Below are positions 1 to 395 of a DNA stretch of 64,000 nt, piece by piece. Under the pieces are notes generated by a model. It saw nothing but the letters and a program-made list of their open reading frames with translations. It was not told the origin of the DNA and ran no database searches. Where the stretch lies: NCBI RefSeq assembly GCF_007748035.1, contig NZ_CP036278.1, positions 1,860,001 to 1,924,000 of the forward strand, in the 5' to 3' direction. The stretch's first letter is position 1. Each line of letters begins with the position of its first letter. The DNA is from Aeoliella mucimassa. Lineage in GTDB: Bacteria > Planctomycetota > Planctomycetia > Pirellulales > Lacipirellulaceae. The translations under genes were made by a program, and so were the position numbers.

Positions 1-13
1 TAGCAATCAGGCA

Positions 14-179
14 GGCGGCAGAGTATCCCAACGATTCTAGTCTGGCGCGAAGCGACATGCGTGCAGCGCATTACGCTTCGCGCGACGAAACATCCATCTT
101 TCACGTTGCCCTGGGGTAACCCCAGAGAGGTAAGCCGAACCAAAGTTCGGGCATTACCAGCTTGGGATACTCTGTCGCC
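14..179 (+). ncRNA. candidate structured RNA, unidentified class
   Basis: An 18-bp closing helix pairs 14-31 with 162-179. It is Watson-Crick throughout except one pair, G18 with U175, that is G-U on the plus strand and would be A-C on the minus strand, so the plus strand is favoured. Three hairpins lie inside: 45-54 with 74-83 continuing into 57-61 with 67-71; 111-116 with 120-125 (loop TAA); and 129-133 plus 135-140 with 145-150 plus 154-158. Together they make a four-way junction of about 166 nt. It lacks the conserved motifs I know for RNase P, tmRNA, SRP RNA or cobalamin riboswitches. It ends about 215 nt before the glycosyltransferase start. It could be an independent RNA, a leader, or a transposon end. 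Confidence 0.55.
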
Positions 180-395
180 CAACGCTGCGAAAATCCACCA
201 TACACCAAGCCAGCATCGGTGTGCAGGAGCAAGGCAAAAAATCGCCCAGCGAATTAGCCGTCAAGCATAAACAGGGTTACTAAGTGGCTAAATATAACTG
301 TTGAAACGTTGGCTAGGTTTGTTCTAATGGGGGAACTCGGTGCCAAACAACCGGGGTAAAACCGCGTGTTTCGTTCTTCAACCCAATCTTCCAGC
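180..395. other. intergenic, no supported gene
   Basis: This stretch lies between the folded element and the glycosyltransferase. Reading frames here are short and look non-coding. A six-base inverted pair TTAGCC/GGCTAA sits near 253-285. I see no convincing promoter or terminator. Confidence 0.4.

Follow-up and report, generated by a model that had tools for sequence, protein, structure and literature searches.

Retrons are bacterial gene pairs that make small single-stranded DNAs, and those whose role in defence is understood possess effectors. The retrons of myxobacteria are not known to have a linked effector. According to a published account (PMC6868368), retrons were first found in myxobacteria, and the myxobacterial retron reverse transcriptases (RTs) have an extended N terminus with no function assigned to it. 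In the retron RNAs described there, the two ends (a1 and a2) are complementary over 8-30 nt, the guanosine that primes sits at the inner end of a1, within a conserved NAGC, the msr contains one to three hairpins of ~7-10 bp with loops of 3-10 nt, and the msd hairpin measures ~10-50 bp (PMC6868368). In Ec86 and Ec73, the RT binds a stem of 8-9 bp with a three-base loop, and NAxxH is found in 14 of 16 validated retron RTs, Mx65 and Ec48 being without the asparagine (PMC6868368).

In this study, we report an element at the left edge of the window, the stretch of 64,000 nucleotides of Aeoliella mucimassa that was analysed. It is very probably the msr-msd RNA of a retron, lying on the minus strand as leader of the adjoining RT gene, because it combines a1 and a2, AAGC, a hairpin with a three-base loop, an msd hairpin and an RT gene downstream (Table 1). 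The a1/a2 helix has 18 pairs, AAGC agrees with NAGC (G 161 being the predicted primer), two msr hairpins are present, one of them with a three-base loop, the msd hairpin P2 has 15-16 pairs in the window copy, and the RT is of retron type with YADD. By analogy with Ec86 and Ec73, P3 is likely to be the RT recognition hairpin. As a kind, the retron is known, including its N-terminally extended myxobacterial members; the family described here is a new member, unmatched in Rfam. The new RNA class proposed by an earlier, sequence-only reading was not sustained, the anatomy being that of a retron msr-msd even though Rfam gave no match.

The closest described systems are the myxobacterial retrons Mx65 (Mxa2), Mx162 (Mxa1), Sa163 (Sau1) and Ne144 (Nex2), which have an N-terminally extended RT like the present family, and Mx65 departs from the asparagine of NAxxH as the window RT does (PMC6868368). 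They also have an AGC-type priming motif in common with it, AAGC here as against GAGC in Mx65 and CAGC in Mx162 and Sa163 (PMC6868368); the likeness to Mx65 and Mx162 is drawn from published descriptions, and the host here differs in being a planctomycete. In the Myxococcus and Pyxidicoccus loci of our own set (L098 and L097), the RT was 45 and 43% identical and the RNA model scored 47.7 and 66.8 bits, respectively; the priming site reads CAGC in L098, and L097 has no AGC. The tripartite defence retrons Ec86, Ec78, Ec67 and Eco8 share the RT fold, a1/a2, msr hairpins and msd hairpin but have a linked or fused effector, whereas apart from the RT no neighbour cluster of the present family extended beyond 4 of the 80 loci. 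The PADLOC profiles RT_other and RT_outgroup are the best profile matches of the RT, a likeness at the protein level only. No report of a planctomycete retron RNA was found in the literature searched, which consisted largely of titles and the beginnings of abstracts and included PMC8867640, PMC12548924, PMC9252829, PMC8934634 and PMC12262390.

Table 1. Features of the element and the adjoining gene in window coordinates.
Feature	Position	Strand	Basis or remark
Whole retron ncRNA (msr-msd), very probable	14..181, read 181 to 14	minus	R2 match of 155.8 bits, E 1.7e-39, the window row itself being among the 36 sequences used to build R2; 168 nt in model R2
a1, 5' strand of closing helix (P1)	162..179	minus	Covariation, 36 sequences
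a2, 3' strand of closing helix (P1)	14..31	minus	Covariation and R2 match; stops 13 nt short of the RT start codon
AAGC motif	160..163	minus	Predicted priming guanosine is the G at 161, adjoining the inner end of a1; role from PMC6868368
msr stem-loop 1 (P4)	129..158	minus	Window fold; outer 4 pairs covary; inner part variable, unaligned
msr stem-loop 2 (P3)	109..129	minus	GC-rich stem, 3-nt loop; most conserved part
msd template region, putative boundaries	32..107	minus	Placed between msr and a2 by analogy with known retrons
msd hairpin (P2)	45..83	minus	10 + 5-6 pairs with internal loop in the window copy
First base of RT ATG	1..1	minus	Gene of 440 aa that continues leftwards beyond the window (L002:8679-10001, minus)

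Fold and Conservation of the RNA

The closing helix consists of 17 Watson-Crick pairs and the G18-T175 wobble. In the minimum-free-energy structure of the plus strand of window positions 1-200, this helix and the hairpins 45-83, 111-125 and 129-158 co-occur, just as the sequence-only reading had drawn an 18-pair helix with three compatible hairpins. The free energy was -90.6 kcal/mol, against a mean of -58.9 for shuffled sequences (z -7.55), and the minus strand formed the same helices (-92.7, z -5.27). None of 200 shuffles was as stable on either strand, which confirms that such a structure is unusual by chance, as had been supposed.

By blastn the element was found in 13 of the 97 genomes searched (own included), in one place each. 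RNAalifold gave the same main helices for these 13 loci, and for 16 of the 41 pairs one or more sequences had both partners altered. The covariance model R1, built from the 13 loci, matched 28 of 396 genomes of the order under strict filters, once each, and found all four genomes that the blastn survey had overlooked among its 97 (G001, G005, G046, and G092). In the survey of the phylum with the model R2, 19 of 392 genomes were matched, four of which were previously known (own included); at each of the 15 newly added loci, sequence homologous to the RT lay on the side and in the orientation expected.

For the analysis of covariation, MAFFT was used to align 36 minus-sense sequences with no structural information. 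The window copy supplied the pairs, of which those formed in 60% or more of the rows were retained, so that the percentages of paired cells are biased towards structure; 93.4% of cells were paired, and 30 of the 43 pairs showed changes on both sides. The covariation score was 0.390, compared with 0.163 after shuffling (none of 500 shuffles reached it) and no more than 0.107 after sliding. The 14 outer pairs of P1 had changes on both sides in 13 cases (89.1% of cells paired) and its 4 inner pairs in two (98.6%). Compensatory changes in the 14-31/162-179 helix had been named from the window alone as support for a structured RNA; 15 of the 18 pairs indeed vary on both sides, and a conserved structured RNA is supported. 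Each of the four outer pairs of P4 varied at both positions, with 82.3% of cells paired, while 99.0% of cells were paired in P3, and 96.2 and 96.6% in the two parts of P2. Within AAGC, the A, A and G were invariant in 36/36 rows and the C was present in at least 90%.

A wider set of 98 rows was obtained by aligning to R2, after removal of 22 short or antisense sequences from 120 matches; L054, L055, L057, L068, and L081, copies of loci already in the set, and L126, L130, and L132, at contig ends, were left out. AGC was present in 80 of the 98 rows and absent in 17 of the 97 that were readable, one row being incomplete at the motif; this absence counts against the retron reading. The three-base loop of P3 was UUA, CUA or AUA in 90 of 98.

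Rfam yielded no family at the gathering threshold in the window. At a relaxed threshold, only a chance miRNA match (E 4.1) appeared in positions 1-400, and for 10 relatives the search returned only a tRNA elsewhere in one locus.

Strand of the RNA

G.U is an RNA pair. In the R2 alignment, read in the minus sense, P1 had 146 G.U against 32 A.C cells across the 98 sequences, and the outer four pairs of P4 had 53 against 22. Counted as changes along a FastTree phylogeny of 94 RTs (L045, L059, L034, and L048 of the 98 were omitted as they had no usable RT frame), the wobbles again favoured the minus sense (111 against 30 in P1, 41 against 15 in P4). The same asymmetry was found in a plus-leaning alignment of 97 sequences (P1, 115 against 21; P4, 43 against 9). 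Because of these counts, and of G.U being an RNA pair, we infer that P1 and the first msr hairpin, P4, act as minus-strand RNA.

A plus-strand transcript had been predicted instead, and these wobble pairs put the RNA on the opposite strand. The argument for it was that G18-U175 fits the plus strand only; this is true of that single pair, the only wobble of the closing helix in the window copy, but it is misleading for the family, in which P1 has 146 minus-sense G.U cells against 32 plus-sense. That the element is a plus-strand structured RNA, or the leader of the glycosyltransferase at 366-1478, is accordingly a reading to which we give practically no weight, in view of the wobble counts of both P1 and P4 across the family. 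The glycosyltransferase is moreover not a common neighbour in the 13 loci, and the divergent RT is, so that the suggested glycosyltransferase leader is not supported. The glycosyltransferase protein had no match in viral contigs, and a promoter scan of positions 1-420 found no promoter-like site, a point that counts against the retron reading.

Reverse Transcriptase

Against Pfam, the RT matched RVT_1 (9.4e-21) and no other domain at 0.001. The best PADLOC profiles were RT_other (5.8e-147) and RT_outgroup (described as retron, 4.9e-140), both matched over nearly the full length, followed by RT_XIII (1.3e-95). The retron St85 RT model of NCBIfam gave 1.6e-54 and Drt2 1.2e-8, each under the cut-off of its model, and the sequence search of the PDB found the retron Ec86 RT (2.5e-30). 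YADD is present in the window RT and invariant in an alignment of 19 rows, whose frames had been picked for YADD. In region X, the window RT and most relatives have FAxxH, and G001 has NAxxH. The retron motif of region Y is VTG; here the window RT has LTG and most relatives AG. It must be noted that FAxxH in place of NAxxH and the LTG or AG of region Y count against the retron reading.

AlphaFold was run on L066, a planctomycete relative whose best segment is 52% identical, along with 46 other sequences, and the mean pLDDT was 93.3. The N-terminal extension was predicted as helices 2-16, 22-33, 38-50, 59-67, and 70-79. When the predicted fold was compared with the PDB, the 18 best matches were retron RTs. 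Judged by these profiles and this model, the RT is of retron type and N-terminally extended.

It was also considered whether the element could serve a defence RT other than a retron RT (DRT type) as its template, to be copied many times over or into a different product, given that the RT of DRT2 is reported to bind a neighbouring non-coding RNA (PMC12039810). The likelihood of this is very small. The St85 model, even below its own cut-off, scores far better than Drt2, and among the PADLOC profiles those of retrons are far ahead; DRT2 came 21st among the fold matches, and a1/a2 with AAGC are marks of retrons (PMC6868368).

The own genome has a second, distinct retron-like RT of 609 aa (L186:1075-2904, plus strand, near C1:5,571,426). 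It carries both NAxxH and VTG, and its N-terminal part is long and rich in proline.

Partnership of the RNA and the RT

Among the ORFs within ~4.5 kb of the 13 first loci, the RT cluster was the one present in 13/13, and the next clusters reached at most two loci. The RT in these loci has ~440 aa and is encoded on the opposite strand, with its start next to the element's left end; it is in two pieces in L013 and a remnant in L016. In the own genome the gene extends past the edge of the window and was therefore out of sight of the sequence-only reading. In a protein-led test, the named genomes were scanned with the RT alignment. The best 80 of at least 577 relatives belonged, by record title, to Planctomycetota, Acidobacteria, Verrucomicrobia, Myxococcales, Burkholderiales and others, and 75 of these 80 had an upstream R1 match in the expected orientation. 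Of the 75, three (L054, L055, and L068) were already in the R1 training set. In four of the five loci without an R1 match (L112, L115, L126, L130, and L132), the RT match starts within 30 bases of the contig end and there is no upstream sequence. In the fifth, L115, the upstream sequence is present, neither R1 nor R2 found the RNA in it, and the stretch folds ordinarily (z 0.09).

The distance from the RNA to the chosen RT start was measured in 69 of the 70 genome-contig loci of the alignment and was below 40 nt in 60 of them, with 465 nt in L096; in L145, one of the new loci of the phylum survey, the RT homology lies ~650 nt away. Within the order, 26 of 296 genomes had the RT at E 1e-110 or better, and 24 of the 26 had an R1-found RNA beside it. 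Regarding the remaining two, the RNA of G218 was found by R2, and in G185 the RNA and RT are on different contigs. The RNA of G185 looks intact (L050:6008-6177) with no RT in the 10 kb around it, and a related RT is on another contig (L135) in which no RNA was found; this may be a split in assembly or binning, or an RNA acting at a distance. The absence of the RNA from L115, the separation in G185 and the gaps of 450-650 nt in L096 and L145 count against the retron reading. No such RNA was found at L182-L185, four loci of the order whose retron-like RTs are more distant. The comparisons made here show the RNA family, its structure, its minus strand and its close pairing with this RT clade.

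Two other explanations bear on this pairing. In the first, the RNA would act as a 5' leader, binding the RT and so regulating it, with reverse transcription lost. The RNA does end just before the RT start, as it does in most relatives, and some copies stand beside damaged RT genes (G054, G085, and G132). This explanation is improbable in our opinion, as AAGC and the msd hairpin are conserved and both have a known role in msDNA synthesis (PMC6868368), and YADD is invariant in the 19 rows, although their frames were selected for it. The damaged genes, at L016/L051 (G054), L023 (G085), and L043 (G132), retain nothing but the C-terminal part, contain a stop in frame or are disrupted in the N-terminal half.

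In the second, the element would be one end of a mobile DNA such as a transposon, a suggestion of the sequence-only reading that fits a long near-perfect inverted repeat and the patchy distribution over the order (28/396 genomes). The probability of this is minimal. The element has one copy in its own genome (a single contig of 6,608,792 bases), no shared mobility gene was found and the RT is the sole common neighbour; in addition, the covariation includes RNA-type wobbles, the partnership with the RT is steady, and no RT match at 1e-30 occurred in phage records. The element is better described as the RNA half of a retroelement. Plasmid records contained an RT match in 11 of 72,556 cases, the best in Burkholderia.

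Neighbourhood and Proposed Mechanism

A linked effector was sought within 3 kb on each side of 80 loci. The 472 other ORFs fell into 28 clusters (blastp, 1e-5), the largest of which spanned 4 loci, nearly all of Burkholderia or Paraburkholderia; very diverse effectors could slip past clustering at this threshold. As regards the linked or fused effector of tripartite retrons, there was no common neighbour in these loci, and RVT_1 was the sole Pfam domain of the RT. From these sequence comparisons, such an effector may be absent, unlinked or too diverse for clustering.

Taking known retrons as a guide, a1 and a2 would pair, and P3, with its three-base loop, would be bound by the RT. Reverse transcription of the stretch adjoining a2 would then start from the 2'-OH of the G of AAGC (161, minus), and synthesis would cross the P2 hairpin and halt near the msr. 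The expected product is an msDNA of ~65-75 nt with the plus-strand sequence of ~32-107, joined 2'-5' to the msr. The system would consist of the RNA and RT pair, and either a partner may be encoded at another genomic site or the N-terminal helical extension of the RT may play a part. By analogy, a role of the msDNA in phage or damage sensing appears most likely.

With respect to the msd hairpin, P2 showed 5 G.U against 215 alternative Watson-Crick cells and P1 146 against 393 (Fisher 1.5e-18 on cells, with relatedness ignored). One P2 pair had all four Watson-Crick types and no wobble across the 98 sequences. The rare wobbles of P2 in these sequences were mostly of the reverse sense (29 against 5 cells); as changes on the RT tree they were 16 against 5, but 10 of the 16 lay in a single pair, and without it the count was 6 against 5. 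The msr hairpin P3 likewise lacks G.U (3 against 67) and does not differ from P2 (Fisher 0.41). The base changes suggest that P2 may be selected as DNA, and this is put forward as a suggestion only because P3, RNA by the same model, is equally poor in G.U and because the reverse-wobble excess rests on one pair. The wobble pattern as proof of DNA-level selection was for the same two reasons withdrawn in part.

A broader reading would be that of a large cross-phylum retron lineage made of RNA and RT only, in which the msd hairpin is selected as single-stranded DNA, there is no linked effector, and the five-helix extension of the RT replaces the effector or binds one encoded elsewhere. We consider it possible but rather unlikely, and it is weakened because P3 lacks G.U too. 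The family nevertheless pairs an extended RT and an RNA, with no shared neighbour, across Planctomycetota, Acidobacteria, Verrucomicrobia, Burkholderiales and others (by record titles), and the RNA model now finds it, making the role of the msDNA of such retrons testable in many hosts.

Three unpaired stretches of the msd, 31-43, 86-89, and 100-103, were strongly conserved (in the plus sense, ACGA then a conserved GTC, GAAA, and TTCA, respectively), and they would sit near the predicted ends of the msDNA.
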